Assembly (NCBI RefSeq): GCF_016786355.1
Contig: NZ_JADWYX010000004.1
Span: 1-64,000 of the forward strand
Source of the DNA: Frankia sp. AgB1.9
GTDB lineage: Bacteria; Actinomycetota; Actinomycetes; Frankiales; Frankiaceae
DNA: 64,000 nucleotides
Direction: 5' to 3'
Both the position numbers and the translations under genes were made by a program. Below the pieces are notes generated by a model, which saw only the letters and a list, made by a program, of their open reading frames with translations, was not told where the DNA came from and ran no database searches. Shown here piece by piece: positions 14,725 through 36,669 of the stretch (its first letter is position 1; every line of letters starts with the position of its first letter).

Positions 14725-15189
14725 TCAGCCGTCTGCCAAACTCGCGGAGACGACAGCGCCGAGTTCCCAGCACGCTTCGCGGTCGGCGGCGTCCAGTTGA
14801 CCTGTCACGGAGAGTGGATCGCGCAGGCGCTTCCACCTCAAACCGGTGGCGATGGTCTCGACCCCTCGAATCGCGCCGGTCGTGTCGCTGCTCCCATGCA
14901 CGTAGAGCGCGTACGGCCGACCGACAGTCGTCTCAAGCACGGGATAATAGATCTGGTCGAAGAAGTGCTTCAAAGCCCCCGACATGTAGCCGATGTTCGC
15001 CGGGGTCCCGAGCAGGTAGCCGTCGGCCGCCAGCACATCGACCGCGGTGGCCGCCAGGGCCGGGCGGACGACGACCTCCACGCCCTCGATCGCCTCGTCC
15101 CTGGCGCCGGCGAGCACTGCTTCCAACATCGCCTGCATGGACGGCGACGGCGTGTGGTGGACGATCAGGAGCGTCGGCATCGACGCCAT
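14725..15189 (-). CDS. Flavodoxin-like NAD(P)H-dependent oxidoreductase
   Basis: This is 154 residues; ATG 15189 or ATG 15180 could start it. It opens MPTLLIVHHTPSPSMQAMLE, the FMN phosphate-binding loop of flavodoxin-fold reductases. It has GYLLGTPANIGYMSGALKHF followed by FDQ, the typical second FMN-contact region. Such proteins are soluble FMN-dependent reductases. A frame upstream of these starts is open but low-complexity. It converges with the lysozyme gene at 37 bp. Confidence 0.8.
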   Translation of the reverse strand: MASMPTLLIVHHTPSPSMQAMLEAVLAGARDEAIEGVEVVVRPALAATAVDVLAADGYLLGTPANIGYMSGALKHFFDQIYYPVLETTVGRPYALYVHGSSDTTGAIRGVETIATGLRWKRLRDPLSVTGQLDAADREACWELGAVVSASLADG

Positions 15190-18806: not shown

Positions 18807-18957
18807 GTCAAGCGGCTTCCCGCCGAGCCGCTGGTCCCGGGACAGCGACGCCGACAGGCAGGGACGGCGACGTCGAACGCCCACGCTTCAGGGGCGCCGC
18901 GAGACGCGGAAGCTCAGGCCCGTCAGCGCCGCTTTCAAGCCGGGGTGGATTTCCCAC

Positions 18958-19434
18958 TTACGAGGACGCGAGTCGTTTTCGGATACCCTCCTGATCGAGA
19001 CGGACCCCGACCGCCGAGTTGACGATCGCGTCAATCATATCGTCCCGACGCAGGCTCAGGCTTACCCGTACTCCGAGGTCTCGGCCGAGTTGCTGAAGGG
19101 CCTTCTTATTGCTAGCAACACCCGCAAGAAATTCGCGCGCCTCATCTCGGCTACCCATCTCGTCGAGACGGCGGCGCACCACCACGATGTCAACACGGCC
19201 AGCGGTGGCCGAGGGGCCGACCTCAGCATTCCGGCCGCTTTTCCACGGCACGCTCTGACGAGCCGGCGGGCCGCTGGGTCGCTCGTCACTGACATCGCCG
19301 CTGGCGACCGGCGGCCCGACTCTGCGCTCCACCGCGAGAACAAGCCGACCCTCGACGAGTTCAAGCGCAGCCTCGTCATCGAGGCTCCGTATGAGCGCCG
19401 AGACCTGCTCCAGCACCGCGAGGACGGCCGCCAT
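18958..19434 (-). CDS. Small protein with SAP-like C-terminal domain, partner of ParA-like ATPase
   Basis: This is 158 residues from ATG 19434; in-frame GTG 19446 would instead overlap the ParA stop. Residues about 1-30 form an amphipathic helix (AAVLAVLEQVSALIRSLDDE). A variable linker follows, and residues about 95-150 read KALQQLGRDLGVRVSLSLRR then DDMIDAIVNSAVG, resembling a SAP-like or rho-N-like helical nucleic-acid-binding hairpin. I do not recognise a named family. It follows the ParA gene by 4 bp, so they are co-transcribed. It may be a DNA-bound adaptor, as ParB or ParG are for ParA, but this is inference. Confidence 0.55.
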   Translation of the reverse strand: MAAVLAVLEQVSALIRSLDDEAALELVEGRLVLAVERRVGPPVASGDVSDERPSGPPARQSVPWKSGRNAEVGPSATAGRVDIVVVRRRLDEMGSRDEAREFLAGVASNKKALQQLGRDLGVRVSLSLRRDDMIDAIVNSAVGVRLDQEGIRKRLASS

Positions 19435-19438
19435 GCTT

Positions 19439-20368
19439 TCAGCCACCGACCTCGCCACCGATCCTGCTCTCAAATTCCTCGACGAGTGAACGGATTTCCG
19501 CTGCTTTATCGGGGCCCAGCTCGAACGCCGCAGGCAGCAACCTGTCGACGCCCATCTGGAAATCCATGCTCTCGCGCATCATGGCGCCGAATGTCGGGAA
19601 CATGCGGCGAACTTCGTCAATGATCTGCTGGCTCGTCGGGATCGGCCCAGGGGACCCGCCGCCGTGCTTCACTCGAGTGAACACCACACCCAGGACAACG
19701 GGCGCTAGGTCGTCGATACTCGCCTCACCTGAGGGTGACTGGCCGAAGAGCTCAAGATTCTTCTGTTTGAAGTCGGCGAGTTTTCCGATCAAATGACGAA
19801 TTCCGAAGGTTGCCAACCGCTCCGGCTGCGCCGGTACCAGGATTCCGTCACTGGCTACGACCGCGGATCGGGTAAGAATCTCGAAATCCGGCCTACAGTC
19901 GATGAGAACGTAGTCGAATCCTTCACGGCGCAGGGACCGCAGTCCGTCGGCTAGCCGCGTCACAACGCGGCGGTGCCGATCCTGGTAGCGACGCGAGCTG
20001 GGATCACCGAGCTCCACTCCGAGCCGGGCGGCAACCTCCTCGAGCTTCGGATCGGACGCCACGATCGCGAGTTCCCCACCATTTCTTCTGGCGTGTGTTC
20101 GAACTGCCTGCGGCCACGATACGTACTGCATGAGATCCGGGCCCACCCCTCTACGGCCACGGGCCGCATACCAGTCCGCGACGGTTCGCCACTCGATCTC
20201 TCGCCCCACATCAGCCGGCCGGAAGAAGGAGTGGGTGAGGCTCGCCTGAAAATCGAGGTCGAGCAGGAGAACGCGCCGCCCTCGGCGGGCGAGTTCAGCG
20301 CCGAGGTTGGCCGTGAGAGTCGTCTTGCCGACCCCGCCCTTGGAGTTGACGACGGTCGCGACCTTCAT
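19439..20368 (-). CDS. ParA/Soj-like ATPase (AAA_31)
   Basis: This is 309 residues from ATG 20368, with GGAG 7 nt upstream. The deviant Walker A KGGVGKTT (about residue 10, signature Lys present), Walker A' DLDFQASLTHSFF and Walker B YVLIDCRPDF are intact. The C-terminal half (TSQQIIDEVRRMFPTFGAMM) is typical of chromosomal ParA relatives. Such ATPases dimerise on ATP and bind DNA to position cargo. There is no parB or parS-like site nearby. It pairs with the SAP-like gene and is divergent, across 350 bp, from a DUF262/HEPN operon, so it is more likely part of an accessory (defence) module than chromosome partitioning. Confidence 0.85.
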   Translation of the reverse strand: MKVATVVNSKGGVGKTTLTANLGAELARRGRRVLLLDLDFQASLTHSFFRPADVGREIEWRTVADWYAARGRRGVGPDLMQYVSWPQAVRTHARRNGGELAIVASDPKLEEVAARLGVELGDPSSRRYQDRHRRVVTRLADGLRSLRREGFDYVLIDCRPDFEILTRSAVVASDGILVPAQPERLATFGIRHLIGKLADFKQKNLELFGQSPSGEASIDDLAPVVLGVVFTRVKHGGGSPGPIPTSQQIIDEVRRMFPTFGAMMRESMDFQMGVDRLLPAAFELGPDKAAEIRSLVEEFESRIGGEVGG

Positions 20369-20718
20369 CACCGGTCTCCGCGGCCTGCGGCGCCCAGCGG
20401 CGTTCGGTCGGTCGGAACCTCGCCACGCCCGAAACTGCCTGGTGCCGTGAGATCGCAACGGCGGACCAACCCCATGGCGACAGAGTGCCATCCGCGTGGC
20501 CCGGCATCAGGGAAACGCCATGACTCACGACCGCGGCGGCGCTCGGTGACTATTCCGGACTAACCAGCCGTGAGCACTTTTGGCCATCAGGGCCGGCCCC
20601 CACAGGCCGTTACTTTCGACCGGGCCGGGCCCGACCTAGTTCGTTCGGACCGCCCGCTGGTCGCGCTGTGATCTCGTCAGCGTGTCGATGCTGGTAGCCT
20701 CTGCGGCAACGCATCGCT
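20369..20718. other. Divergent control region between ParA-like and DUF262 genes
   Basis: 350 bp without a supported gene. A TAGCCT box near 20695 could serve as -10 for the DUF262 gene. No iteron array or parS-like palindrome was found. Confidence 0.4.
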
Positions 20719-21957
20719 ATGGTCGGCAGTCAGCGCAGGCGGGCCACCGCAGGCATTGAACGACCGAACCGATCCGCCTGTTCTGAGATCCTTTCCGGCA
20801 CGGTCCCGTCGCCGGTACGACGACACGAGGAGGTGACCGAGACGGCTGCACGAGCGGGCGATGACAGCGACTCCGAGGAGTTGCGTGACGAGGACAAGGC
20901 CGAGCTTCAGGAGGTGGACCCCGACCCCCCGCAGATCAGCTACAGTGGTACCGACTTCGACGTCGAAGGCCTAGTCCGCCGACACGATCGGGGCGATATT
21001 GTCGTTCCGTCCTTCGGCAACGATGATCCCGGAATCGAGACAGCCGGATTCCAGCGCGAGTTCGTCTGGAAGCGGTCGCAGATGGATCGTTTCATCGAGT
21101 CACTGCTGCTTGGGTACCCCATCCCGGGAATATTTTTGGTCCAACAGCAGGACCGCCGCTATCTCGTCCTGGACGGACAGCAACGAATTAAGACCCTGAG
21201 CCTATTTTATGGCGGCAGCATAAACGGTCGCGACTTCGCACTCCAGAATGTCGCGGAAAGATTCCAGGGACTGACCTACCGCACCTTTTCGCCGGAGCAG
21301 CGCCGGACGCTCGACAACACCTTCATCCAGGCGACGATCGTCAAGACCGACGGTACTCGTGAATCGCTCGACGGCGTCTACCAGATATTCGAGCGGTTGA
21401 ACTCCGGCGGTACCCAGCTCACGGCACACGAGATTCGCGTGGCGCTCTATGCTGGTGAGTTCATCAAGTTCCTGACCAGCTTGAACGAAAACCCGGCGTG
21501 GCGAGCGCTCTATGGCCCGCCGTCGCCACGCCTGCGCGACCAGGAGATAGTGCTCAGATTCATCGCCCTGTACGTTTCGCCGGGCAGCTACAAGCGTCCA
21601 CTGAAGAAGTATTTGAACGATTTCGTTGGTGCCCATCGTCAATTGGACGAGCTGGACGCCGATCTGATCGCAAGACGCTTCAGCAGAGCCGCGGAGTTGG
21701 TGTTGGAGGAAGCCGGGAGAAGCGCTCTTCGCGTCCGGGGCCGCCAACTGAACGCCGCCCTCACCGAAGCACTCTTGGTAGGCCTTGCCCGCCGGCTCGA
21801 CGCCGGGAGCGAGCCGACCTCGGCGGAGGTCAGCCACGCCGTTGACGAACTTCTCAGCGAATCTGACCTGGACTATGTCACCACGCGCGCAACGGCCGAC
21901 GAGGAGAGTGTGCGGATGCGTCTCGCGTTGGCCACGAGAGCGTTCTCGCGCATCTGA
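20719..21957 (+). CDS. DUF262 (GmrSD N-terminal-like) protein
   Basis: This is 412 residues from ATG 20719; GTG 20833 is another possible start, immediately abutting GGAGG. After an acidic N-terminus the DUF262 ParB/sulfiredoxin-like core is clear: FQREFVWKRSQMDRFIESLL, GYPIPGIFL, YLVLDGQQRIKTL with the DGQQR nucleotide-site motif, and IFERLNSGGTQLTAHEIRVA. The C-terminal half is helical. DUF262 proteins hydrolyse NTPs and occur in anti-phage systems such as GmrSD. It lacks a fused DUF1524 HNH nuclease; a HEPN protein 1 bp downstream probably supplies the nuclease. Codons such as ATA, TTT and TAT are more common here than around. Confidence 0.85.
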   Translation: MVGSQRRRATAGIERPNRSACSEILSGTVPSPVRRHEEVTETAARAGDDSDSEELRDEDKAELQEVDPDPPQISYSGTDFDVEGLVRRHDRGDIVVPSFGNDDPGIETAGFQREFVWKRSQMDRFIESLLLGYPIPGIFLVQQQDRRYLVLDGQQRIKTLSLFYGGSINGRDFALQNVAERFQGLTYRTFSPEQRRTLDNTFIQATIVKTDGTRESLDGVYQIFERLNSGGTQLTAHEIRVALYAGEFIKFLTSLNENPAWRALYGPPSPRLRDQEIVLRFIALYVSPGSYKRPLKKYLNDFVGAHRQLDELDADLIARRFSRAAELVLEEAGRSALRVRGRQLNAALTEALLVGLARRLDAGSEPTSAEVSHAVDELLSESDLDYVTTRATADEESVRMRLALATRAFSRI

Positions 21958-21958
21958 C

Positions 21959-22471
21959 ATGAGCAGGCGAGAACGTGCCGAAATTTGGCCCCCAGTCGAA
22001 ACACGAATCATCCTCGACCGGCTGTCCGAGTTGTCGGTCCTTATGCAGGAGCAGGCACGGACCTCAGACAGCCAGGAAGTCGTCGCCTGGCTCGCGCGCC
22101 TGCTGGTCATCCGGAGCTGCGGATACCTGGAACAGACCGTGGCCGAGACTTTCCGGGCCTACACGAAGAGGCTGTCCTACGGTCACGTCAGGAACTTCTC
22201 ACTTGGCTGGCTAGATCGGACGCAGAACCCGACTCCTGCAGCGTTGGAGACCCTGGCCGGCCGTTTCGACCAGGACCTGCGCGAGGAGCTGGGCACGCTG
22301 CTCGACGCGGACGACGGGCGGCTTCGTCGAGAACTGGCTGCGCTGGTTGACCGGCGGAACCGGATCGCCCACGGTCTCAACGAGGGCGTCGGCATGGTGA
22401 AGGCGTTGGATCTTCAGAAGGTCGCTTGTGAGGTCGCCGACTGGTTCATCCTCCGCTTCGGGCCTGTTTGA
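21959..22471 (+). CDS. HEPN-domain protein (MAE_28990/RiboL-PSP-HEPN-like), putative RNase
   Basis: This is 170 residues from ATG 21959, starting 1 nt after the DUF262 stop. The helical body contains VAWLARLLVIRSCGYLEQTV and ends with LAALVDRRNRIAHGLNEGV. The RNRIAH stretch is the HEPN Rx4-6H catalytic motif with the usual Asn after Arg. HEPN proteins of this class are metal-independent RNases in toxin-antitoxin and abortive-infection systems. Tight coupling to the DUF262 gene implies one functional unit, with DUF262 as sensor/NTPase and HEPN as effector (inference). Confidence 0.75.
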   Translation: MSRRERAEIWPPVETRIILDRLSELSVLMQEQARTSDSQEVVAWLARLLVIRSCGYLEQTVAETFRAYTKRLSYGHVRNFSLGWLDRTQNPTPAALETLAGRFDQDLREELGTLLDADDGRLRRELAALVDRRNRIAHGLNEGVGMVKALDLQKVACEVADWFILRFGPV

Positions 22472-22575
22472 TCCCCGGCGCGGGGAGGCACGGTCGCCCG
22501 GCGAACGGTCACCGCACCGTGACGGGTACGTGTCGCTGGGGAATGTCGCGGCTCCCGCCGTGGGTTGGCCCTCGC

Positions 22576-23274
22576 ATGACGACGATCGGACTCATCGGAA
22601 GCGGAAGCATCGGCTCGACCGTGGCGCGCCTCGCGGTGACGGCCGGCTACGACGTGGTGCTGAGCAACTCGCGCGCGCCCGAGACCCTGGCCGAGCTGGC
22701 GGCGGAACTCGGCCCCAAGGCGCGGGCCTCGACGCCGACGGGGGCGGCCGAGGCCGGGGACCTGGTGGTCGTGACCATTCCGCTGCGGGCATACCGGAGC
22801 GTGCCGGTGCAGCCGCTCGCCGGCAAGATCGTGCTCGACACCAACAACTACTACCCCCAGCGCGACGGGCAGATCGCCGAGCTTGACGACGAGAGCACGA
22901 CGAACAGCGAACTTCTGCAGGCACACCTGCCCGACTCGAAGGTCGTCAAGATCTTCAACAACATCTACTTCAAGCACCTGCTGTCGCTCGCCCGACCGGC
23001 CCAGGCAGCCGACCGCTCGTCGCTCGCGATCGCCGGCGACGACGCCGGCGCGAAGGCGACCGTCACCGCGTTCCTCGACGACCTCGGCTACGACACCGTC
23101 GACGCGGGCCCTCTCGCCGAAGGCTGGCGGTTCCAGCGCGACACCGCCGCCTACGGAGGCGTCTACTTCGGCCCAGGCGGCGCCGGTGGCGACGCGGGAG
23201 TTCCGGTCGACGCGGCCACCCTGCGCGCCGCCCTCGCCGCCGCACGCCGCTACGCCGACGCTTCCCCCAGCTGA
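22576..23274 (+). CDS. NADPH-dependent F420 reductase-like oxidoreductase
   Basis: This is 232 residues from ATG 22576. The N-terminal Rossmann loop reads TIGLIGSGSIGSTVARLAVT, NADP binding is likely through LSNSRAPETL, and the middle contains VVTIPLRAY and LDTNNYYPQRDG. The C-terminal part (VKIFNNIYFKHLLSLARP and AGDDAGAKATVTAFLDDLGY) matches the NADP oxidoreductase/F420 reductase (Fno-like) family. Many members are not true F420 reductases, so the substrate is uncertain. It looks like an ordinary metabolic gene between the two defence-type modules. Confidence 0.82.
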   Translation: MTTIGLIGSGSIGSTVARLAVTAGYDVVLSNSRAPETLAELAAELGPKARASTPTGAAEAGDLVVVTIPLRAYRSVPVQPLAGKIVLDTNNYYPQRDGQIAELDDESTTNSELLQAHLPDSKVVKIFNNIYFKHLLSLARPAQAADRSSLAIAGDDAGAKATVTAFLDDLGYDTVDAGPLAEGWRFQRDTAAYGGVYFGPGGAGGDAGVPVDAATLRAALAAARRYADASPS

Positions 23275-23339
23275 CCCGCCCCCCATCGGGCCCGACGGGA
23301 AAGTCCACGCCGAATACAGAATCCTGTATCCGAGAAGAT

Positions 23340-23762
23340 TTACCCCTCCACGCCAGATACGTAGCGCGCAATTGCCCGAACGAATTCCTCGAGGTCGCCG
23401 AGGTCTTTCAGCCGGCCAATGACGATATCGTCGTCGACCTGGATGTAGTCGTGGACGAGGACATTTCTGAAGCCGACTGCCTTGCGGAGCGACCGCGCAA
23501 GCTGCGGCGCCAGAGCTCCGTGGTCACCGAGGAGCCGGATCGAGTCGCCGTTGTCCGCCGGTGGTCCCCAGCCCTGCGTCGCGCAGATGTGCTGCGCGAC
23601 GTCGACGCAGGCCTCGATCGCGGTCACGAAGGTGTACTTGACACCTCGTAGCCAGATCGGGTCTGCTCGGCGGCCGTCATCGGCGTCCGACTCTCGGCCG
23701 AGAACAGACAGGTCATCGGTGATCGCGCGAAGCAGGCGTTGCACCCGGGCCTCGTCGACCAT
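23340..23762 (-). CDS. hepT: HepT-like ribonuclease toxin (DUF86)
   Basis: This is 140 residues. It opens with an all-helical segment (DEARVQRLLRAITDDLSVL), then KYTFVTAIEACVDVAQHI, and carries FRNVLVHDY, i.e. the HEPN Rx4H motif followed by the Tyr (HxY) that partner MntA proteins AMPylate. HepT is an RNase that cuts tRNA or mRNA unless modified. It lies 3 bp after the MNT gene in the same direction, the order known for MntA/HepT (type VII) modules. The region just downstream is AT-richer than average. Confidence 0.85.
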   Translation of the reverse strand: MVDEARVQRLLRAITDDLSVLGRESDADDGRRADPIWLRGVKYTFVTAIEACVDVAQHICATQGWGPPADNGDSIRLLGDHGALAPQLARSLRKAVGFRNVLVHDYIQVDDDIVIGRLKDLGDLEEFVRAIARYVSGVEG

Positions 23763-23765
23763 CGG

Positions 23766-24158
23766 CTAGGCGCTCCTGCCCAGCAGGGCAGCGACGAACT
23801 CGCGGTGCGCGCGCGTGATCCGCGGGAGTTCATCGAAGTAGATCTTTCTCGTCATCGCCTCCCAGTGGACCCGCGCGGCCCGGTCCTCCTCGAAGAGGAG
23901 CCGCCCAGCGGCCGCGACCCTGCCGGCCAGTTCGAGCGGTGCCTTGTCGAGGACGAGGAGGTCGACTCCGGTCGGGAGGAGTATGTCGAACGAGTTCGGC
24001 GGCACCGGTCCGCCGAAGTAGGCGGCGATGTCGATGTCAGAGTCCGACTGCTGGCGCCCAACGGCATAGCTGCCGTGCAGGTAGGCGAACCGGGCACCCG
24101 CCTGACGGAGCACGTCGACGGCCTCGCGTGTCGCCGTCGCGGCGCGCGTCTCGTCCAT
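23766..24158 (-). CDS. mntA: MntA-like minimal nucleotidyltransferase antitoxin
   Basis: This is 130 residues from ATG 24158. The nucleotidyltransferase motif is GSYAVGRQQSDSDID, which fits the GSx10DxD pattern required for AMP transfer. A third carboxylate is probably in VDLLVLDKAPLE. MntA neutralises HepT by AMPylating its Tyr. The gene precedes hepT by 3 bp, so they are translated together. All expected key residues of both partners are visible, so the module should be functional. Confidence 0.85.
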   Translation of the reverse strand: MDETRAATATREAVDVLRQAGARFAYLHGSYAVGRQQSDSDIDIAAYFGGPVPPNSFDILLPTGVDLLVLDKAPLELAGRVAAAGRLLFEEDRAARVHWEAMTRKIYFDELPRITRAHREFVAALLGRSA

Positions 24159-24540
24159 GGCCCAATCTTCGCAGATGGGAGAGCCAGGCGGCCTCCGCTT
24201 TCGCCGCGCCGCGGATCCGCGTCGGGTGGAAGAACGCGGCCTGACGTGCCGTCTCCCGACCCTGCGACCTCGCGTCGTGGTGCTGCCGGCGTCCGCGGCC
24301 AGCCCAGGAGCTGTCTCGGGCAGGCCGCGAAAGCGACCATTTGCTGCGATGACGACCAAGGTCGAACGCCTGCCGCCGCCATCTCGAATTCGAACACACG
24401 AACGAATGAGGAGTCGATATTCGCGGAAGGGGCCCTGGCTAACTTACCGACGGTCCCGTCGGCCTAGCACGTTGAATCTGGCCTGATGACCAGAAACCCG
24501 GATTCGCCCAACGGCACCGCCCTATGATTCTGATGGCTCG
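24159..24540. other. Intergenic region between MntA and the NERD helicase
   Basis: About 380 bp with a short GC hairpin (CCGACGG and CCGTCGG with a 2-nt loop, near 24450-24465). It is locally AT-richer near 24380-24480. No supported gene. Confidence 0.4.
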
Positions 24541-26979
24541 ATGCGAGGGGGTGACGTGGCCGCGACCGGATCGCGTGTCAGTCGATCCGCCGAGTCGAGT
24601 GGCCACAGGTCAGTAATTCCTTCGGCGGAAAGCGGCGATTACCTACCGCAACCATCGGCCCTGGCCAAGGCGGCCGAGCTCGCCGAAGAGATCGACGGAA
24701 TTCAGCGCCAGATTCTGCAGCTCAACGACCTCCTGAAGCAGCTCCGTCGTCATCACGGGAACTGGACGGCCGGCGGGCGGGGCGAGCAGAACGTGACGCG
24801 CGTGCTGGTCGGGATGGACGACGCGGGATGGCATGTCCTCCCGGACCGGCAGTGGCCCGGAAGCCGCCGCGCGAACATCGACGTGATCCTGGTCGGGCCC
24901 GGCGGAGTCTTCGTCATCGACGTGAAGAACTGGCGGGAGGCGAGCGTCCGCGACGGACGGCTGTGGCGGGGCGACGCCGACGCGGACGACGAACTGGGCA
25001 AGCTGGTCAGGCAGACGGTCGCCGTGGAGGAGGTGCTGGCCGAAGCGGGCCTGCCACCGACCGAGGTGGTTCCACTGCTCGTTCTCGCCGGTCGGCGCAA
25101 CATCAGGGCGACCCTCGACCGGGTGCTCGTGATCGGCGAGGACGACCTGGTTCGCGAGGTCGTCCCCCGTGGTGCCCGCCTGGAGCCGGAGATCGTGGAG
25201 CGCCTGCTGAGCCGGCTGGAGCAGGGCTGCCCGCCGATGCCGCGTGCGCAGGCCATGGCGCCCCAGCCCGCTCGGCCTCGGACGGCGGCCACGCCACGGC
25301 CGGTGACGCCCACGGTCCACCCGAATCGGGTCGAGGCGAGGCGCACCACACCGAGACCAGAGCCAGAGCCCGCGACAGCGACAGTGACGGGCTGGACGCC
25401 GTCGATCGAGGTCGAGGTCGCGCCCGCGCCGCGCCGCGGGCAGCCGGCGCAGGAGCCGTTGATGACCCGAGAGGAGCTTTGGCAGGAACTGCTCGACGCC
25501 GCCGCCCGAGAGCCGATCGAGTCCTGGATGACCTGGCTGCACCCGACGCAGGCCCGGCTGCCGGGCCGCAGGTTCTCCGGACCAGCCCGGATTCGCGGCT
25601 CCGCCGGCACCGGCAAGACAGTGGTCGCCCTGCACCGCGCCAAGTACCTGGCCGCGCGCGGCGACCGTGTCCTGTTCACGTCGCTGGTGCGCACGCTCGG
25701 ACCGGTCTACCGCCAGCTGATGACCAGAATGGCCCCCGACCAGGTGGACCGGGTCGAGTTCGCCACCGTTCACGCCGTCGCCACCCGCTGCCTGCGCGAA
25801 CACGGCCTCGCGCAGCGCCACCAGCCGGAGGCCGCTGAGACCTGCTTCTGGCGCGCCTGGGCGCAGGTCGGGAAAGGCTCAGTCCTACCCGGGCTGGGCC
25901 TCGCGCCGCGATACTGGAAGGACGAGATCGGCACCGTCATCAAGGGCCGCGGGCTCACCACGTTCGATCAGTACGCCAAGCTGGCGCGCATCGGCCGCCG
26001 CACCCCGCTGCTCGCCGGGCACCGCCGAGCGGTCTGGGACCTGTATGAGACCTACGAGCTGCTGCGGGCGGAACGCGGGATCCTCGACCGGGACGACGCG
26101 CTGCTACTCGCCACCGAGCTGGTGCGGGCGAACACCGAGGCCCGATACGACGCGGTGATCGTCGACGAGGTTCAGGACCTCACCTGCGCCGGCCTGCGGC
26201 TGCTGCACGCGTTCGTCGGTGACCGGCCGGACGGCCTGCTCGTCGTCGGCGACGGGCAACAGTCCATCTACCCGGGCGGTTTCACGCTGGCTGAGGCCGG
26301 CGTCTCCGTCGTCGGTCGCTCCACGGTGCTCACGCGCAACTATCGCAACCGCGAACGAATCGTGCGGTACGCGCAGGCGGTCGTCGCCGAGGACAGTTTC
26401 GACGACCTCGACGGCGTCCAGGAGAGCGGCAGCCGCGCGGTCGACGTCGACCAGCCCGGCGGAGATGTGTACGAGGTCGCTGTCACCTCGCCGGCAGCCC
26501 AGGAGAAGGCGCTCGGCGACCACCTCGTTCAGCTGCACGCCGCCGGGCAGGTCCGGTACCGGGACATGGCGGTCCTGGTCCCGACGAACGCCGCCGCCGC
26601 CTCCTGGTCGCGGGCGCTGGCACGGCGCGGCATTCCCGTGGTCTCGCTGCTGGACTATGACGGCAGCGGCAGCGAGGCGGTCAAGATCGGCACTTACCAC
26701 CGGGCCAAGAGCCTCGACTTCGGCCACGTGTGCGTCCCGGACCGCAATCGCTTTCCAGAACCACGCCGCCCCGCCGAGTCCATCGAGGCGTACAACGAGC
26801 GCACCCAGCTGGAGCGCCGGGCGCTGTACGTGGCCATCACGCGGGCCCGCGACAGCCTGTGGGCAGGCATTCGAGCGGAGCCCGAGGCGGACAGAACGCC
26901 CCATTCCGCCGCGGCCCGACATGACACCGCGCCGCCGGCCGACGGACCGGACCGGCCCCACCGGCGCGCTACTACCTGA
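24541..26979 (+). CDS. NERD-domain nuclease fused to UvrD/PcrA-like helicase
   Basis: This is about 812 residues from ATG 24541; GTG 24556 is an alternative start. Residues about 78-200 form a NERD nuclease-related domain (GGRGEQNVTRVLVG, RRANIDVILVGPGGVFVIDV then KNW). A Pro-rich linker at 235-300 joins it to an SF1 helicase: Walker A GSAGTGKT near 353, VDEVQDLT (Walker B), GDGQQSIYPGG, LTRNYRNRERIV, and the C-terminal VAITRARDSLW motif. Such fusions are often found in defence islands and are presumed to unwind and cut foreign DNA. It is flanked by toxin-antitoxin modules here, which supports that reading. No partner gene is adjacent. Confidence 0.85.
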   Translation: MRGGDVAATGSRVSRSAESSGHRSVIPSAESGDYLPQPSALAKAAELAEEIDGIQRQILQLNDLLKQLRRHHGNWTAGGRGEQNVTRVLVGMDDAGWHVLPDRQWPGSRRANIDVILVGPGGVFVIDVKNWREASVRDGRLWRGDADADDELGKLVRQTVAVEEVLAEAGLPPTEVVPLLVLAGRRNIRATLDRVLVIGEDDLVREVVPRGARLEPEIVERLLSRLEQGCPPMPRAQAMAPQPARPRTAATPRPVTPTVHPNRVEARRTTPRPEPEPATATVTGWTPSIEVEVAPAPRRGQPAQEPLMTREELWQELLDAAAREPIESWMTWLHPTQARLPGRRFSGPARIRGSAGTGKTVVALHRAKYLAARGDRVLFTSLVRTLGPVYRQLMTRMAPDQVDRVEFATVHAVATRCLREHGLAQRHQPEAAETCFWRAWAQVGKGSVLPGLGLAPRYWKDEIGTVIKGRGLTTFDQYAKLARIGRRTPLLAGHRRAVWDLYETYELLRAERGILDRDDALLLATELVRANTEARYDAVIVDEVQDLTCAGLRLLHAFVGDRPDGLLVVGDGQQSIYPGGFTLAEAGVSVVGRSTVLTRNYRNRERIVRYAQAVVAEDSFDDLDGVQESGSRAVDVDQPGGDVYEVAVTSPAAQEKALGDHLVQLHAAGQVRYRDMAVLVPTNAAAASWSRALARRGIPVVSLLDYDGSGSEAVKIGTYHRAKSLDFGHVCVPDRNRFPEPRRPAESIEAYNERTQLERRALYVAITRARDSLWAGIRAEPEADRTPHSAAARHDTAPPADGPDRPHRRATT

Positions 26980-27124
26980 CCTCGCACCCGTCGGGCGACA
27001 CCTCGGTGCCTGCGCGGCATTGGCCTATGTCAGGCGATACGACGCGGAGGGTACCGAGCGTTGCCAGACGCCGGCCTGTCGATGATGTCCAAGTTCCGAG
27101 CCCCGCGAGGTCGGCCCGCTGGCT

Positions 27125-27198
27125 TGATCGCCGTTCTGGTCCTCGCATGGTCACAAAAACGCCGCGATTACAGCCACGCGAGGGCGGAACAGCGATCT
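27125..27198. repeat. Dispersed imperfect palindromic repeat, copy B
   Basis: The left arm reads TTGATCGCCGTTCTGGTCCT. The right arm on the minus strand reads AGATCGCTGTTCCGCCCTCG. It is more degenerate than copy A but keeps the GATCGC ends, the GTT block, CCTCG and TGG. It lies in the 360-bp intergenic space 26980-27339, where I see no gene. Confidence 0.65.
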
Positions 27199-27339
27199 TG
27201 CTGGTCTCGGCACGAGGCCAGCCTTGTCGGGGGGCCGCGCTAGCCAGCGACGGCGCGGTGGGGCGGCACTCGGCACCGACGCTTGACAGCAATCCACAGA
27301 GATTGTCTGATTGGATAACAAGGGATTGGGAGGCGCCGC

Positions 27340-27927
27340 GTGGAGCTGGATCGTGACACGCGCGAAGTCATGGCCTGGCTGGACCGCGCCTTGGCGGACA
27401 GCGGTCTGACACAGGCGGAGTTCGCCGCCGCGCTCGCCACCTCCGCTTCGAGGTTCTCCACCTACCGCTCCGGCAGGACAAGGCCGACAGCCGCGTTCTG
27501 CTTCCGCGCTCGCCGCATAGCCGAGGGACTCGCCGCGGCGCGGCGGACGCGCGTGATGTCAGCGCCAGTCACGGCTAAGATCATTCGTGACGCGGAGGAC
27601 GAGGACTGGGCCTGGCGGATGCTGCTCCAAGGCCGCGACCACCTACGTATGCTCCTCGAGGATGGCGACGCCGCAGTCTCCAGCTGGGAGGCGGTGCCTC
27701 CGAGCACCGGGAGCGCCGCATTCGACACCTTGCTCGCGGTTCTGACGCGCCGGGAGTTCGACGCGGCTGGCATCGAGGCGCCCGTCTGGTGTCGTCCCAA
27801 GCGCCTGCCGGAGGCGTGGATTCCCCGTCATCCGTTTCTCACCCATGTCGAAGTCATAGCCAAGACGCCAGAGTTCCTGAAGGAACTCAACGTGTTCGTT
27901 CCCGCCCGCGATCTGGTTACCGCGTGA
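27340..27927 (+). CDS. HTH (XRE-like) antitoxin-type protein
   Basis: This is 195 residues from GTG 27340. Residues about 8-50 form a helix-turn-helix (LADSGLTQAEFAAALATSAS then RFSTYRSGRTRPT). The C-terminal half (WAWRMLLQGRDHLRMLLEDG, AVLTRREFDAAG) is helical and fits HTH antitoxins that partner nucleotidyltransferase-like toxins. The stop overlaps the next start as GTGA, so the pair is one transcriptional and translational unit. I infer antitoxin and autorepressor. No palindromic operator is obvious upstream, although an AT-rich patch (27295-27325) may hold the promoter. Confidence 0.65.
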   Translation: MELDRDTREVMAWLDRALADSGLTQAEFAAALATSASRFSTYRSGRTRPTAAFCFRARRIAEGLAAARRTRVMSAPVTAKIIRDAEDEDWAWRMLLQGRDHLRMLLEDGDAAVSSWEAVPPSTGSAAFDTLLAVLTRREFDAAGIEAPVWCRPKRLPEAWIPRHPFLTHVEVIAKTPEFLKELNVFVPARDLVTA

Positions 27928-28508
27928 GCGGCGGCTATGAGTTCACAGCAGCCGAGATAACCGACCTGCTCGCAAAGCTCGACGAACGCCTCCGCGCGCG
28001 AGGCGCCTCCGCGACGGTCTTCATCGTAGGCGGCGCAGCGATCGCGGTCAGATCACGCCAGTATCTACGACAGACCGAGGATATCGACGCGATCACTCGC
28101 GACGAAATCGTCCTGCACGAGGCCCGCGGGTTGGCAACCGAGATCGGACTCCCGCGGAACTGGCTCAATGGCCGCGCAAGCATGTGGATGCCACCAGTGC
28201 CCGAGGATGCGCTGGCGCCGGTGACCGAACCGGGCCTCCACATCACGTACGCCACCGACGAGTTCCTCCTCGCCACGAAGCTGATTGCCCAACGACGCAA
28301 AGACGCACGCGACATCCTGGAGCTCGCGGCCCGCGCAGGGCTGACGGATGCCACCGCTGACGAGCTTGAAGCGTTGATCTACCGCTACTACACCGATGCC
28401 GGAGCACTCGAGTTCATCGTCGACGGCACGGACACCCAGACCGAAGTTCGACTATTGGCCGATCATGCGGCTCAGCTCCTCGCGCGCGGCCGGTCGCTCG
28501 ACGGGTGA
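27924..28508 (+). CDS. Nucleotidyltransferase-fold protein (DUF6036/AbiEii-like), putative toxin
   Basis: This is 194 residues from GTG 27924, overlapping the HTH gene stop. It has the nucleotidyltransferase start VFIVGGAAIAV, the acidic pair in RQTEDIDAITRDEI and the tail FLLATKLIAQRRKDARDILE, the pattern of DUF6036 and AbiEii/MenT-like proteins. Related toxins add nucleotides to tRNA or proteins. Paired with a HTH protein this looks like a type II or IV toxin-antitoxin unit. Which of the two is toxin is inferred. Confidence 0.65.
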   Translation: MSGGYEFTAAEITDLLAKLDERLRARGASATVFIVGGAAIAVRSRQYLRQTEDIDAITRDEIVLHEARGLATEIGLPRNWLNGRASMWMPPVPEDALAPVTEPGLHITYATDEFLLATKLIAQRRKDARDILELAARAGLTDATADELEALIYRYYTDAGALEFIVDGTDTQTEVRLLADHAAQLLARGRSLDG

Positions 28509-28657
28509 GGTGGCCGTCCGTCGCCGCGGCCCATTGCGCGACCGCTGTCCGCCATTCACGGGACGGATAAGCCCGGGGCTCCTCAGGATGGCCCACTAGA
28601 CTCGAACCCGATCGCGCCCAGTGGAGACGATGTGAGGCGACAGAGCTTGCGGGACGA

Positions 28658-30541
28658 TTGGTGATCGTCGACCGGGGGCGGGTGACGCAGGCGCTACCTG
28701 GCTATGTGCTGGGTGAGAAGCTTGGGTCCGGGGCATTCGGCCTGGTGTTGGCGGGGACGCATCGTCAGCTGGGCCGGCCGGTGGCTATCAAGGTGATGGA
28801 GACCACAAGTACCGCGGCAAGTTTCGCCGCCGAGGCTCGGGTGCTGGCCAGGCTGGACCATCCGCATATCGTGCGGGTCTACGACTACGTCGAGGACCAC
28901 GGCCTAAGCCTGGTCGTGATGGAACTGCTGGCCGGGGGCACCCTGACCGGCCAACGGGCGGTGCTGAGCCCCGAGCAGATCTGCGCGGTGGCGTTGGCGA
29001 TCGCCGCGGCACTTGAGCACGCGCACCGGCACAAGGTGCTGCACCGCGATATCAAGGCCGAGAACGTCATGTTCGCCAGTGACGGCACGCTCAAGGTCAC
29101 CGACTTCGGCGTGGCCAAGCTGATGGAGGGGGTGGGGACGACCTCGAGCGGCGTCGCCGGCACGCCGGCCTACATGGCGCCGGAACAGATCGAGGGCGGC
29201 CAGCTCGGGCCGTGGACCGATCTGTACGCGCTGGGGATCGTCCTTTACAGGCTGTTCACCGGTCGGCTGCCGTTCGACCCGAAGCTTCCGCTGCTCGCGC
29301 TGCTGAGCCACCAGCTGACCAGGCAGCCACCGCCGATGGACGGTGTCGCCGCTCCACTGGCCGAGGTGGTGTCGCGTCTGCTGGCCAAGTCACCCGGCGA
29401 CCGCCCTCCGGACGCCGCCACGTTCGCGCTCGAACTCGCGACGGCGGCCACCACGGTGTTCGGCGTCGGATGGGCCGCGCTCGGGCCGATGCCGCTGCAC
29501 CTCGATGACGTGGTTCGTGCCGCCACCGAGCGTCCTGCGGACCGCGCGGCCGTCGCCCTGGTCGGGCGGGCGGAACCCGCTACCCCGGAGGATCTCGCAC
29601 CTCGCCCACTGAGCATGACGAGGACCGGGTCGGCGACGTTGGTCCCATCCCAACCGCCGGCCAGGCTCGGCGAACCGCCCTTCTCGGCGGGGCCCCGACT
29701 CCCGCCGTGGGAATCCGGGGAGGGCTCCCCAGTCCCGACCGCCTCTCCCGACCCGTCCGCCTCGGGCGGGTCTGCGCCCGAGACGTCCGGGCTTTTGACC
29801 GAGATCCCCCGGGGTGGCGAAGCGCCTTCGGCGGACGGTTCCGGTGAGAAGCCGCCCGCGGATCAGCCTTCCGGCGCGCGGGCCAGAAGGCGGCGGCGTC
29901 GTCGGCGGGAACGCGGTGCCTGGATCGTCGGGGGCGTCGTGCTCGTCCTGGTGGTCGCGGCGGCAGTCCTCGCGCCGTCCTTGTCCCCCGGGAGCTCTCC
30001 TCGACCTCCCGAGGCGCAGAAGGCCACCACGGTCCTGCCCGACACCGGGCCGGCGGCCGGGACGCCGCGGTCCCCGTCGGCGACGCCGATCCGCTCCGTC
30101 GACGCGACCATCCCACCCAGCAGTCCCGGCATGATCACCACCTTGAGCGCCGCGACGACGAACGCCGGCGTCGTCCCGACCGCCTATTCGATCGACGGAA
30201 TCAACGGCGGCGACGACACGACCCAGGTTCCGGGCTCCGAGGCGGACACCTACTGGGTGGGCAACGACGCGACCTGTTCGGCGTGGCTGGACGACAACGG
30301 CTCCGGCGCGCTCGCGGGAGTGCTCAACACCTCGCTCACCCAGTCCTGCGTCGCCGAGCTGTTCCGCAGCGATGCCTCGGCCTACACCTTCTCCGCGTCG
30401 TGGGGCGCCAAGAAGACGAACTTCATCCCGGTCGGGGGATCCACCATGTGGATCTGCGTATGGCACGCGGACCTTCAGTCGACCACCGAGGTGTGCTCGC
30501 CTCACTTCGGCATGAACGGCAGGACTCCGGTCAGGCGATGA
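28658..30541 (+). CDS. Membrane Ser/Thr protein kinase (PknB-type)
   Basis: This is about 627 residues from TTG 28658; GTG 28661 and 28682 are also possible. The kinase domain spans about 16-265: glycine loop LGSGAFGLV, Lys45 in AIKVM, catalytic Asp131 in HRDIKAEN, DFG at 149-151, and APE in AYMAPEQIEG. A disordered Pro/Ser/Glu-rich juxtamembrane region and a run of eight Arg lead to a TM helix (about 421-440, IVGGVVLVLVVAAAV). The outer 185 residues have no PASTA repeats. They contain a compact part with Cys residues (TCSAWLDDNGSGALAGVLN, TMWICVWHADLQ) that may sense an extracellular signal. Confidence 0.88.
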   Translation: MVIVDRGRVTQALPGYVLGEKLGSGAFGLVLAGTHRQLGRPVAIKVMETTSTAASFAAEARVLARLDHPHIVRVYDYVEDHGLSLVVMELLAGGTLTGQRAVLSPEQICAVALAIAAALEHAHRHKVLHRDIKAENVMFASDGTLKVTDFGVAKLMEGVGTTSSGVAGTPAYMAPEQIEGGQLGPWTDLYALGIVLYRLFTGRLPFDPKLPLLALLSHQLTRQPPPMDGVAAPLAEVVSRLLAKSPGDRPPDAATFALELATAATTVFGVGWAALGPMPLHLDDVVRAATERPADRAAVALVGRAEPATPEDLAPRPLSMTRTGSATLVPSQPPARLGEPPFSAGPRLPPWESGEGSPVPTASPDPSASGGSAPETSGLLTEIPRGGEAPSADGSGEKPPADQPSGARARRRRRRRRERGAWIVGGVVLVLVVAAAVLAPSLSPGSSPRPPEAQKATTVLPDTGPAAGTPRSPSATPIRSVDATIPPSSPGMITTLSAATTNAGVVPTAYSIDGINGGDDTTQVPGSEADTYWVGNDATCSAWLDDNGSGALAGVLNTSLTQSCVAELFRSDASAYTFSASWGAKKTNFIPVGGSTMWICVWHADLQSTTEVCSPHFGMNGRTPVRR

Positions 30542-30594
30542 CACGACCCCGTGTCGAGTGCCGACCGCGCGAGCGGAGACGACCCCGCGAAAGG

Positions 30595-31002
30595 TCAGGC
30601 GAGCTGCTCGCGCAGCCATGAAAGCGGCCGGCCCTCGAGTTCCGCCAGTCCCTCCTGGGCGGTCAGCTCGGTCGACGCGGCCACCGGGAATCGCCGCACC
30701 ATTCGGGTCGCGGGGTAGTAGACGAAGCGCTCGCCGAACTCCAGACAGAGCCGGAACGAGGCGACCCAGGAGGCGACCCCTTCGTCCGCGCCGCGCGCGG
30801 CGAGGAACGCCTCGGCGCTGGAAAAGCGTTCGACCGAATCCTGCTGGTCCTTGCGGTCGATCTCGTAGTAGCCGTAGACGTTTTCGATCGGGTCGAAGAA
30901 ATAGCCGACCTCGTGCCACTGATCGGCGTCGACGGTCAGGACCGGGTACGTCCTCGATGTCACGGCCACGAACTCGCGCACGGAGAGCGCAACGTCAGGC
31001 AT
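30595..31002 (-). CDS. Unrecognised 135-residue cytoplasmic protein
   Basis: Starts at ATG 31002. The sequence has good actinobacterial composition and a folded look: REFVAVTSRTYPVLTVDADQ, VGYFFDPIENVYGYYEIDRK, RFSSAEAFLAARGADEGVAS, FGERFVYYPATRMVRRFP. I do not recognise a family. Its aromatic, acidic character and size resemble immunity-type proteins, but no toxin adjoins, so that is only a guess. It ends 53 bp from the convergent kinase gene. Confidence 0.6.
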   Translation of the reverse strand: MPDVALSVREFVAVTSRTYPVLTVDADQWHEVGYFFDPIENVYGYYEIDRKDQQDSVERFSSAEAFLAARGADEGVASWVASFRLCLEFGERFVYYPATRMVRRFPVAASTELTAQEGLAELEGRPLSWLREQLA

Positions 31003-31031
31003 GTTCCGCACCCTACGACCGAGGATGTCCT

Positions 31032-31074
31032 GGGGATCCGGTCCGCCCGCCAAGGCCGGGCGGACCGGATCCCC
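31032..31074 (-). terminator. Strong GC-rich terminator hairpin
   Basis: GGGGATCCGGTCCGCCCG (31032-31049) and its exact complement (31057-31074) flank a 7-nt loop. It lies 14 bp after the stop of the MacB-like permease gene (minus strand) and just before the start of the next minus-strand gene. Confidence 0.75.
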
Positions 31075-31088
31075 GAGGACCGGCCGGG

Positions 31089-33494
31089 CTACTCGGAACG
31101 CAGCGCTGTCACGGCCCGGGTCCGCGCCGCCCAGACGGCGGGGAGCATGGCGCCGGCCACCGCGATGACCAGCCCGCCCAGGGCCAGCGGCACCAGCATC
31201 GGCCCGTCGAAGACCGCGACGTCCGCGTGCGGAATCCCGGTGCCGACCGAGTGGCCCATCAACGGGACGATCAGGTGGTGCAGCGCGATTCCCGCGGGCA
31301 CGCCGACCAGGCCCGCGACCAGGCCGAGGCCCGAGACCGACGCGATCACCATGCCCACGGTCTGGCGGGGCGTCATGCCCAACGCCTTGAAGACGCCGAG
31401 GTCGTGGACGCGTTCCCTGGTATCGAGGACGACCGTGTTGAGCACCCCCAGCGCCGCCACGACCGTGAGCGCCACGGTAAGCGTGCCGATCAGCGCCTCC
31501 ATCGTCGCGATCACCGAAGAGGCATTGGTGAGGTTGGCCTCGGCGTCGCCACCGCTGGCCGCGACCGCGGGGCCCAGTTTGGCGAGATACCCGGCCAGGT
31601 TGCTGCCGGGCTTGAGGTCGACGTGGAACTCCGTGGGCGAAAGGTCGTCGCCGAGCCCGGCCAGGGAGTCGCTCTCGGTCAGCAGGGTCATTCCGTCGTG
31701 ATGGAGGTCGAGGGCCTCGCCGACGATCCGGAGGCTGACGCTGTGGCCCTGGTCGAGAACCGTGACGCTGTCGCCGACCTTCACGCCCGCGGCATGGAGG
31801 AACCGGGTACCGACGACGACCTCCCCTGGCCGGCTGAACCAGCTCCCCGAGATCATCTGGTAGGTCGCCCAGGAGGAGTCGCCCTGGTAGGCGACGGCCG
31901 TGGTCGCCCCGGTGAGACCGGAGACGCTCACCTCGGTCTCGCTGACGCTGTAGAAGCGGCGAGTCCCTGGCTGAGCTCTGATCGCGGCGGCGACCGCGCC
32001 CGGGTCGGGCTGGACCGAGGTCTGCGCGTCCAATGGCTGCGGAACCTTCCCCGCCCCGGGACCCCGCGCGGGACCGGCCGCATAGACGACGACGGCGCCG
32101 AGTGAGTCGCGGTTGCGCGCCGCCTGGATGTCGTTCAGCGAGAGCCCCAGCCCGACCGCGAACGTCACGCCGATCGCGCCGAAGCCGATCGCGGCGACCA
32201 GCACCGACGAGCGGGCGGGACGAGAGAAGGGCTGGGCAAGGCCGAGGGCCACCGCGCGCGGCAGCCGCGACCGGCCGACCAGCCGCTGCGCCAGGCGCCC
32301 GCGGGTGGTGCGGACGGCCCGTCCAACGCTGATCGCCTCGACGGCCCGCAGCCGCCCGGCCCGCAGCGCGGGCGCCAGGGCGGCGGCGCCGACGACCCCG
32401 AGGGCCGCCGCCGCCACGGCGAGGTCGACCCAGAGCGGGATCGACGGGGCGATGCCGCCGTAGGCGTTCGCCTGCTCGCGCAGCACCGGCACCGCCAGCA
32501 GGTTCCCGCCGACCGCGCCGAGCACGACGCCCGCCGACGCGGGGATCAGCGCCTGCCCGAGATAGGCGCGCACGACCTGCGCCGGGGTGAAGCCCAGCGC
32601 CTTCAGGACGCCGATCCGCCCGATGGCCGCGCCGACGGCGCCGCTGACGACGATGCCGATGATCAGAGCCGACATCACGAGCCCGAGGATGCCGAAGGCG
32701 GCGACGAACGGCACGAAGGCCGCGGTGCTGGAGTTCGCGCGCTGCCTGACCGCGAGGTAGGACTGCGTGCCCGTCATCGACCCGGCGGGCACCGCGGCCG
32801 CGATCGAGGCCCGGCCGGCCGCCACCTCGGCGTCCGTACCGGCGGCGCGGAATCGGTAGAGCATCTCGAAGCCCGCCGTCGTGCCGGTGGCGGTCAGGGC
32901 CGGCAGCTGCGCCGGGACGACCCAGGCGTCGGCGGTATGGCTCACCGACCGGGCGATGCCGACCACCGTCACCGTCTGACTTCCGGATCGTCCAGGGAAC
33001 AGCAGCGAGTCGCCGAGCTGCACGGGAGCACCTCCCGCGTCGGAGGCCAGCACGATCTGCCCGCTGCCGGTGGCCCATCGCCCCTGCAGCAGCGTCACGT
33101 CGTCAACCGGGCCACCCCGGTCCGCTCGACCGACGACGGTCAGCGGCTGCAGGTCGATTCCCGCGGGAACGCCGACGCTCCCGGCGGTGGTGCGCGGCCG
33201 GGCCGACGTGGTCGGGAAGGGCCCGGCCGCGGCTGTCACCCCCGGCGCCCGCGCGGTGGCGGCGAGCCGCGCGGCGGTGACCTTCGTCCCGTCGAACTGG
33301 GCGGTCAGCTGTGCCCCGTGCTGCCCGGCGAAGGCATGGTCGAACGGCGCGTTCGACGCGACGAGCAGACCGGTGGCGAGCACGGAGGCGGCCACGGCCA
33401 GGAGCACGGTCAGGGTCAGCACGATGGTCCGCACCCGGTGCCGGCCGACCCCGGCCCGCACCACCGCGCCCAGCGCCCCGCGCCGAGCCCTCAT
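31089..33494 (-). CDS. FtsX-like ABC transporter permease (two-repeat, MacB/LolC type)
   Basis: This is 801 residues from ATG 33494. The first TM (VLTLTVLLAVAASVLATGLL) is followed by a large extracytoplasmic domain, three TMs around 260-400, another TM/ectodomain repeat, and three final TMs (about 690-795). The two FtsX blocks each carry the conserved cytoplasmic helix (GRIGVLKALGFTPAQVVRAY and DLGVFKALGMTPRQTVGMVI). Such permeases export lipoproteins or peptides, or confer antimicrobial resistance. Its start overlaps the ATPase stop by 4 bp. The pair is divergent from a NarL-type two-component system that probably controls it. Confidence 0.88.
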   Translation of the reverse strand: MRARRGALGAVVRAGVGRHRVRTIVLTLTVLLAVAASVLATGLLVASNAPFDHAFAGQHGAQLTAQFDGTKVTAARLAATARAPGVTAAAGPFPTTSARPRTTAGSVGVPAGIDLQPLTVVGRADRGGPVDDVTLLQGRWATGSGQIVLASDAGGAPVQLGDSLLFPGRSGSQTVTVVGIARSVSHTADAWVVPAQLPALTATGTTAGFEMLYRFRAAGTDAEVAAGRASIAAAVPAGSMTGTQSYLAVRQRANSSTAAFVPFVAAFGILGLVMSALIIGIVVSGAVGAAIGRIGVLKALGFTPAQVVRAYLGQALIPASAGVVLGAVGGNLLAVPVLREQANAYGGIAPSIPLWVDLAVAAAALGVVGAAALAPALRAGRLRAVEAISVGRAVRTTRGRLAQRLVGRSRLPRAVALGLAQPFSRPARSSVLVAAIGFGAIGVTFAVGLGLSLNDIQAARNRDSLGAVVVYAAGPARGPGAGKVPQPLDAQTSVQPDPGAVAAAIRAQPGTRRFYSVSETEVSVSGLTGATTAVAYQGDSSWATYQMISGSWFSRPGEVVVGTRFLHAAGVKVGDSVTVLDQGHSVSLRIVGEALDLHHDGMTLLTESDSLAGLGDDLSPTEFHVDLKPGSNLAGYLAKLGPAVAASGGDAEANLTNASSVIATMEALIGTLTVALTVVAALGVLNTVVLDTRERVHDLGVFKALGMTPRQTVGMVIASVSGLGLVAGLVGVPAGIALHHLIVPLMGHSVGTGIPHADVAVFDGPMLVPLALGGLVIAVAGAMLPAVWAARTRAVTALRSE

Positions 33495-36552: not shown

Positions 36553-36562
36553 CAGTCGTGGG

Positions 36563-36599: not shown

Positions 36600-36669
36600 A
36601 CCGGGTTCGACGCGTCCAGGCCGCCGAGGGTTGCCCTGTCGACGCCCGCGAAAAGGGCCGGCGAAACCG

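Follow-up and report, generated by a model that had tools for sequence, protein, structure and literature searches.

A four-gene locus of Frankia couples a ParA-SAP pair to a DUF262-HEPN pair and hints at a role for ParA-type ATPases in immunity

This study concerns a 64,000-nucleotide stretch of DNA from Frankia sp. AgB1.9 (contig NZ_JADWYX010000004.1, positions 1 to 64,000; hereafter the window) and, within it, four adjacent genes that encode a ParA-family ATPase, a small SAP/Rho_N-like partner, a DUF262 protein and a HEPN protein. We find that the locus is one co-inherited four-gene unit. Judged from its sequence, the DUF262-HEPN half is an NsnA/PD-T4-2-like pair, a known kind; as far as our searches go, the stable joining of such a pair to ParA-SAP is new, as is the wider ParA-SAP family. 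The explanation we favor, with a confidence that stops a little short of even, is that the locus is a co-inherited module of two two-gene cassettes, in which ParA-SAP would serve as an accessory sensing or regulatory pair for ribonuclease (RNase) effectors. The ATPase, nucleoside triphosphatase (NTPase), RNase and nucleic-acid-binding roles of the four proteins are those predicted from their families.

Four genes inherited as one unit

A preliminary description of the window had placed genes for ParA, a SAP-like protein, DUF262 and HEPN at 18958–22471. Open reading frames (ORFs) called on the window, four of which are present in that interval, agree with this, as do their Pfam domains. The window genome (G000, with the locus on contig C223) is a 9.79-Mb assembly. 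For close relatives, we used a set of 35 Frankiaceae genomes. The same four genes, in the same divergent order, occur at two more chromosomal sites, in G088 and G122 (the latter presumably Frankia sp. AgB32), and hence in 3 of the 35 genomes. The preliminary description had left room for the possibility that ParA-SAP and DUF262-HEPN are neighbors only in the window, or that the partner of ParA is a partition ParB encoded elsewhere. The four genes in fact adjoin one another at three unrelated sites, with different flanking genes at each, and the partner is the SAP-like gene, of which no second copy was found in the window genome. The features of the locus are as follows.

18958 to 19473 or to 19434, reverse strand: SAP/Rho_N-like partner of ParA; start TTG 19473 or ATG 19434, 158–171 residues
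19439 to 20368, reverse strand: ParA-family ATPase; Pfam AAA_31 3.2e-29, deviant Walker A motif KGGVGKT intact
20369 to 20832, no strand: divergent intergenic/promoter region, partly kept in the G088 and G122 copies
20833 to 21957, forward strand: NTPase-like DUF262 protein (GmrSD_N domain), NsnA/PD-T4-2_A type; GTG 20833 is the likely start, and the longest ORF begins at 20719
21959 to 22471, forward strand: HEPN (RiboL-PSP type) putative RNase; ATG start, R-x4-H motif intact
18954 to 22482, no strand: extent of the unit common with G088, and with G122 in two pieces (to 22465), by DNA alignment
18808 to 23308, no strand: segment absent at the matching site of the congener G100 (module plus an oxidoreductase gene), by DNA alignment

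DNA similarity between the window and G088 runs from 4 bp beyond the SAP stop codon to 11 bp beyond the HEPN stop codon (18954–22482). With G122, similarity covers 18954–20589 and 20826–22465, and G088 aligns with G122 as a single 3,541-bp match (87.9%). Synonymous divergence (dS) between the window and G088/G122 is 1.14/1.36 for ParA, 0.81/0.98 for SAP, 1.00/1.22 for DUF262 and 1.12/1.35 for HEPN; between G088 and G122 the corresponding values are 0.33, 0.41, 0.49 and 0.38. Ratios of nonsynonymous to synonymous divergence (dN/dS) are highest for SAP (0.28–0.35), followed by ParA (0.09–0.18), HEPN (0.04–0.09) and DUF262 (0.02–0.04). Because dS is alike across the genes and dN/dS lies between 0.02 and 0.35, these data indicate that the four genes have been under purifying selection and have been inherited jointly. 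A chance neighborhood of four genes is ruled out by the matching dS values together with the ends of the alignments, which fall at the outer genes.

The segment 18808–23308 is missing from the matching site of G100, and a second congener, G242, lacks window 18830–36670, next to an M20 peptidase gene. These absences place the module in a variable island. Toxin-antitoxin and defence-like genes are found in the island block that G242 lacks. In G122, a repeat of ~75–150 bp (L020 9034–9137) stops 12 bp short of the unit; the same repeat lies away from the unit in the window (14810–14962) and in G088 (L019 17004–17170), and might be a mobile repeat.

The DUF262-HEPN pair is of a known kind

In Pfam, the DUF262 protein matches GmrSD_N (1.2e-29) and, weakly, DEK_C, and it contains the DGQQR motif, whose meaning in DUF262 proteins is given in PMC10952713. 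Its best PADLOC model is NsnA (PDLC03877 in PADLOC-DB; 6.6e-59), which spans nearly the whole length, and PD-T4-2_A also matches (1.8e-47). Both models recognize DUF262 in all nine rows scanned, the window included, and NsnA is likewise the top PADLOC match for plasmid homologues from E. coli, Arthrobacter and Rhodococcus. We found no paper in our literature search that explains the NsnA name or its partner. The second protein of the pair matches HEPN_RiboL-PSP (2.3e-13; 50.9 bits), compared to 15.4 bits for the MAE_28990/MAE_18760-like model, which is below the cut-off of 26.8. HEPN is an RNase fold (PMC3710099), and the R-x4-H motif is invariant in all 11 aligned HEPN rows, that of the window among them. 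The PADLOC models thus support the preliminary view of this pair as defence-like.

PD-T4-2, an anti-T4 system of E. coli, is built like this half of the locus, in that a HEPN gene comes after the one for DUF262, and Pfam PF18735, the HEPN family of the window protein, is listed for it (PMC10952713). Deletion of PD-T4-2 in its native strain raised T4 plaquing, and the system is functional in K-12 (Vassallo 2022, PMC9519451). The window differs in its additional ParA-SAP cassette and in its HEPN protein, which matches PD-T4-2_B only partially and weakly (best score 0.0025). GmrSD, BrxU and SspE also have a DUF262 domain with the DGQQR motif; in SspE and BrxU, this domain hydrolyses NTPs and controls the nuclease domain (PMC10952713). 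In contrast to these proteins, the window has its HEPN in a separate gene and, by Pfam, no DUF1524 nuclease domain in either the DUF262 protein or its HEPN partner, and on this basis we rejected membership in GmrSD type IV restriction.

Close relatives of DUF262 are present in 7 of the 35 Frankiaceae genomes, and another seven contain distant relatives only (~28–36% identity), which are outside the count of close loci. Six close loci are informative, G292 being set aside as its contig ends inside the DUF262 gene. ParA-SAP adjoins DUF262-HEPN at three of the six, namely in the window, G088 and G122. In G207, another DUF262 gene (L150:3944–5734) is followed by one for a 228-residue protein, HEPN-like by eye, and a C-terminal fragment of PIN_8 lies a few kb away.

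ParA-SAP and a second RNase family

ParA-SAP occurs mostly without DUF262-HEPN. In G268, G056, G162 and G233, a PIN_8 gene comes directly after the pair. The same three-gene arrangement is split between two contig ends in G224 and broken in G038, and G181 retains a SAP remnant. With broken and remnant cases included, the association is seen in 7 of the 10 Frankiaceae genomes that have a PIN_8 match. (PIN_8 matches were obtained in 25 genomes, and the regions were read for all of these except G113.) The PIN_8 gene is co-directional with SAP, overlapping it by 4 bp in G268, G056 and G224 and lying 20 bp behind it in G162 and G233.

The ParA tree has one branch that separates the 7 rows of RNase-linked ParAs from the 15 rows of unlinked Frankiaceae ParAs, with support of 99/98. 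Support for the split is 91/94 without the row O_G095, and with five non-Frankia rows added, the groups receive 90/82 and 100/99. Of 43 ParA places, 23 were used in the trees; those left out were the Y- or Z-like G296, G299, G181, G251 and G224 and 15 that scored like group X. Three own-genome ParAs, filled in 16–20% of columns, were kept in the first tree and dropped from later ones.

A ParA profile scan of 173 genomes of the phylum at E 1e-60 recovered at least one genome, the window's alone among the candidates scored. At E 1e-40, the corresponding scan of 393 genomes of the class recovered at least 21 (20 Frankiaceae, 1 other). Only the best few candidates per genome were scored, and hence these counts are lower bounds. 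PADLOC gave no match for SAP and, for ParA, nothing beyond a short match to PDC-M28B at the P-loop.

Directly upstream of ParA-SAP-PIN_8, and on the same strand, G162 (L136:1853–8201), G233 (L100) and G038 (L138) have a gene for a HerA/AAA-type ATPase of 1,088–1,128 residues plus a smaller gene. The ATPase of G162 matches PADLOC mad8 (2.9e-22), and with ParA-SAP-PIN_8 these genes could make up a five-gene defence operon. A second Frankiaceae ParA family, group X (L098, L099, L101 and L102), is conserved and solo, without SAP; at two of the four loci viewed (L099 and L101), it lies near prephenate-dehydratase-like and dehydrogenase-complex-like genes, as judged by eye.

The partner of ParA

The 19 members of the SAP family share a short conserved segment at the N terminus and, after a linker that varies, a C-terminal domain of ~65 residues with the pattern L..LA..LGV...IVD.TVG.RL. 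For the window protein, the label SAP-like, as first given, is supported indirectly. The window protein itself has no Pfam match, and within the family two members match Rho_N, one of them above the Pfam cut-off, while the SAP model is matched once, weakly. An hhalign comparison of the family with an own-genome Rho_N match (L202, the best PF07498 match in that scan) aligned 34 columns with probability 38 and E 0.0003. Comparison of the family profile with the repeated domain of a Cys/His-containing protein of G122 gave a probability of 97. We found nothing meaningful in a PDB profile search with the family, and the partner has no ParB, helix-turn-helix (HTH) or ribbon-helix-helix match in Pfam or NCBIfam. 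The label SAP/Rho_N-like is therefore reasonable, although not proven. The G122 protein just mentioned (L194:1015–2142, G122:C235) has, by eye, a zinc-ribbon-like N-terminal Cys/His part and two copies of the SAP/Rho_N-like domain, and its gene adjoins a methyltransferase-like gene.

ParA-SAP outside the actinobacteria

We scanned IMG/VR with the ParA alignment and obtained seven loci, three of them full-length (31–34% identity). A SAP-like gene follows ParA in all three (E 1e-17, 5e-12 and 3e-15 among the ORFs of each locus), as detected with a profile built without the genes found. In a second scan, a SAP-like gene follows ParA in 4 of 15 loci, these being the full-length ones; the partial ParA matches in IMG/VR have no SAP-like gene after them. 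The full-length addition of the second scan, L230, has a broken ParA and neighbors that look P2-like by eye.

Through the IMG/VR locus L205 we reached E. coli, where the pair is present in 8 of 5,426 complete genomes. Six of these copies lie between the replication endonuclease (gpA)/DinI genes and the portal gene (gpQ) of P2-like prophages, accompanied by three different sets of co-occupants. The other two are beside an integrase gene at a tRNA-Asn gene. The P2 region between these genes is a hotspot of anti-phage systems (PMC9122126; PMC9519451). The main text of PMC9122126 contains neither 'ParA' nor 'SAP' as a whole word, although the pair could be listed in its supplementary tables, and no description of the ParA-SAP pair appeared in the literature we searched. 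The E. coli and IMG/VR copies overturn the idea that ParA-SAP is confined to the Frankiaceae and one other genome. Next to ParA-SAP and on the opposite strand, four of the P2 hotspots of E. coli carry a set of three genes that includes a PD-(D/E)XK nuclease (L219/L220 5934–8684; L225/L226 1434–4184). The nuclease is annotated as hypothetical in L220, and different genes occupy this place in 17MR471 and VG12A2.

Among 72,556 plasmid records, none matches the window ParA (E 1e-15) or the window SAP (E 0.01). With the L205 ParA, six plasmids match at E 1e-20, of which one exceeds 50% identity, over 40% of the protein; this ParA, on the Vibrio plasmid pMBL287, is apparently broken and follows qatC and qatD. 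Phage records (50,697) include no match to the window SAP or to the double-domain protein of G122. The L205 ParA matches 27 of them at E 1e-15, with 26–34% identity in the 25 listed.

Gene starts, composition and surroundings

The HEPN start codon, ATG 21959, falls 1 bp past the DUF262 stop codon, just as the preliminary description had it. The 4-bp spacing of ParA and SAP reported there applies if SAP starts at ATG 19434, whereas a start at TTG 19473 would overlap ParA by 35 nt. For DUF262, comparison with the sequences of relatives makes GTG 20833 the likely start rather than ATG 20719, and therefore the divergent gap is probably 464 bp and not 350 bp, as had been thought. A search of inverted repeats in the intergenic region found none common to the divergent regions of the window and G088.

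Of the 64 one-kb bins of the window, those at 21–22 kb and 19–20 kb have the lowest G+C (GC) fractions (0.603 and 0.633). GC is ~0.72 in the left neighbors and 0.66–0.73 in the right ones. The module had been described as AT-richer than its surroundings; this is clear with respect to the left side, but the contrast on the right is modest. The nearby HepT/MntA and NERD-UvrD helicase genes were also confirmed, with the MntA score slightly below the NCBIfam cut-off, and an NAD(P)/F420 oxidoreductase gene separates them from the module. Compared with window 23309–26979, where these genes are open, the congener G100 (L166) has internal deletions of 161 bp in hepT and 131 bp in mntA, and its helicase gene has two, of 321 and 624 bp.

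Discussion

In its ATP-bound dimeric form, ParA binds DNA, and its ATPase is stimulated by a partner. PIN, the other domain found next to ParA-SAP, is an RNase fold. Given the alternative RNase neighbors of ParA-SAP (DUF262-HEPN and PIN_8), the most economical reading is that the pair supplies an RNase effector with an additional step of sensing or regulation. We infer that this step might work as follows. In one cassette, DUF262 would be an NTPase-type sensor or switch, and the HEPN RNase would stop the infected cell. The other cassette, ParA-SAP, would be a patchy accessory unit, whose ties with RNase genes fall on one side of the ParA tree. ATP-bound ParA dimers would coat DNA non-specifically, the C-terminal domain of the SAP/Rho_N-like protein would bind nucleic acid, and its N-terminal segment would stimulate the ParA ATPase. 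Infection, sensed as foreign or degraded DNA, would alter the ParA/SAP state, and this change would license or position the RNase effector.

A number of observations weigh against a single module with ParA-SAP as its accessory pair. The two cassettes are transcribed divergently in the window. Three of the six informative close DUF262-HEPN loci (in G056, G242 and G299, where the DUF262 frame of G299 is split) have no ParA-SAP within stretches of 18–19 kb, according to BLAST searches (E 1e-3) with the window proteins. The same is true of DUF262-HEPN in all four other actinobacterial genomes (G123, G481, G611 and G435; the second gene of G481 was assigned by eye and from the alignment) and in four of four plasmid stretches, from Arthrobacter, Kocuria, Rhodococcus and E. 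coli. The plasmid stretches were judged on annotation alone, which PLSDB calls incomplete, and the second gene on the E. coli plasmid is an annotated 'hypothetical protein' that aligns with the HEPN rows. All seven IMG/VR contigs with DUF262 relatives likewise have no ParA-SAP; HEPN adjoins DUF262 on five of these, L213 being cut at the contig end and L217 representing another DUF262 type. Conversely, ParA-SAP stands without DUF262-HEPN or PIN_8 at 11 Frankiaceae loci of group Y, in G095, and at the IMG/VR and E. coli loci. Identity among the six P2 copies is 99.7–100%, and hence they may stem from one acquisition. The ParA branch of group W is long (1.4–1.6 changes per site), making its place less sure, and the first tree sets groups W, Z and G095 against the rest at only 81/98 and is otherwise poorly resolved. 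The four-gene module put forward in the preliminary description holds at three sites, but a strict four-gene system is at odds with close DUF262-HEPN pairs that lack ParA-SAP and with the many ParA-SAP pairs that lack DUF262-HEPN.

The main rival is that two independent defence cassettes lie side by side, one a stand-alone ParA-SAP hotspot system and the other a stand-alone DUF262-HEPN pair like PD-T4-2, moving together as a defence mini-island. Because each cassette is found without the other, the two may be separate units traveling together, and separate, divergent transcription and a location in a variable island with other toxin- or defence-like genes are what it would lead one to expect. 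It accounts less well for a linkage kept through dS of ~1 at three sites, or for a second kind of RNase, PIN_8, whose gene is co-directional with SAP and whose linkage falls on the same side of the ParA tree, and we regard this rival as possible but doubtful. Alternatively, ParA (with SAP) might be an antitoxin or regulator that holds the HEPN or PIN RNase off, with no phage sensing involved. HEPN and PIN folds are known from RNase toxins, and the neighbors of ParA-SAP are HEPN and PIN_8 domains by Pfam. Moreover, a HEPN(MAE_18760)-ParA/Soj dyad, in which a ParA-type ATPase gene adjoins a HEPN RNase gene as in the window, has been predicted to be a toxin-antitoxin pair (Anantharaman 2013, PMC3710099), and the same survey noted a RiboL-PSP HEPN in an operon with ParB. 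However, the dyad consists of two genes and involves another HEPN family, whereas the window HEPN is of the RiboL-PSP type and its ParA is followed by SAP, divergently from DUF262-HEPN. In addition, DUF262-HEPN pairs exist in many genomes without ParA, which argues against ParA as an obligatory antitoxin. We consider this alternative unlikely.

ParA-SAP could also function in DNA partition or in maintenance of a prophage or island, with SAP as centromere binder and DUF262-HEPN as a passenger or addiction module. The usual partition layout is ParA plus a small downstream partner, and the window shares with ParA-ParB systems the ATPase family, the Walker motif and a small downstream partner gene. 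The family match extends to phrog_164, a 'ParA-like partition protein', and putative partition genes are present in around a fourth of P2-like phages (PMC9122126). On the other hand, the partner, which is SAP/Rho_N-like, matches neither ParB nor HTH models, and the pair is nearly absent from plasmids. With 0 of 72,556 matching the window ParA or SAP at the thresholds used, a partition role fits badly, and with only 8 of 5,426 E. coli genomes carrying it, the pair is too rare to be a common P2 partition system. This function strikes us as quite unlikely. A plain chromosomal ParAB system was rejected, since the partner is not ParB-like and the other ParA-like proteins of the genome match the window ParA only weakly and in part, with E no better than 1.3e-9.

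We therefore return to ParA-SAP as an accessory sensing or regulatory pair for RNase effectors. ParA-SAP may be part of bacterial immunity, since it also precedes a second type of RNase gene and occurs within a defence hotspot of E. coli prophages. A bolder version, to which we give limited credence, is that ParA-SAP is an unrecognized two-gene immune unit, made of a DNA-state sensor ATPase and its SAP/Rho_N partner, which acts alone in E. coli P2 prophages and which in Frankia recruited interchangeable RNases (PIN_8 and DUF262-HEPN), giving rise with the latter to a four-gene abortive-infection system. ParA ATPases are the textbook movers of DNA, and a ParA pair placed in a prophage defence hotspot and tied to two kinds of RNase effector would mean that immunity has borrowed partition machinery. 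Its copies in E. coli shift the question from the hard genetics of Frankia to simple cloning and plaquing in K-12.

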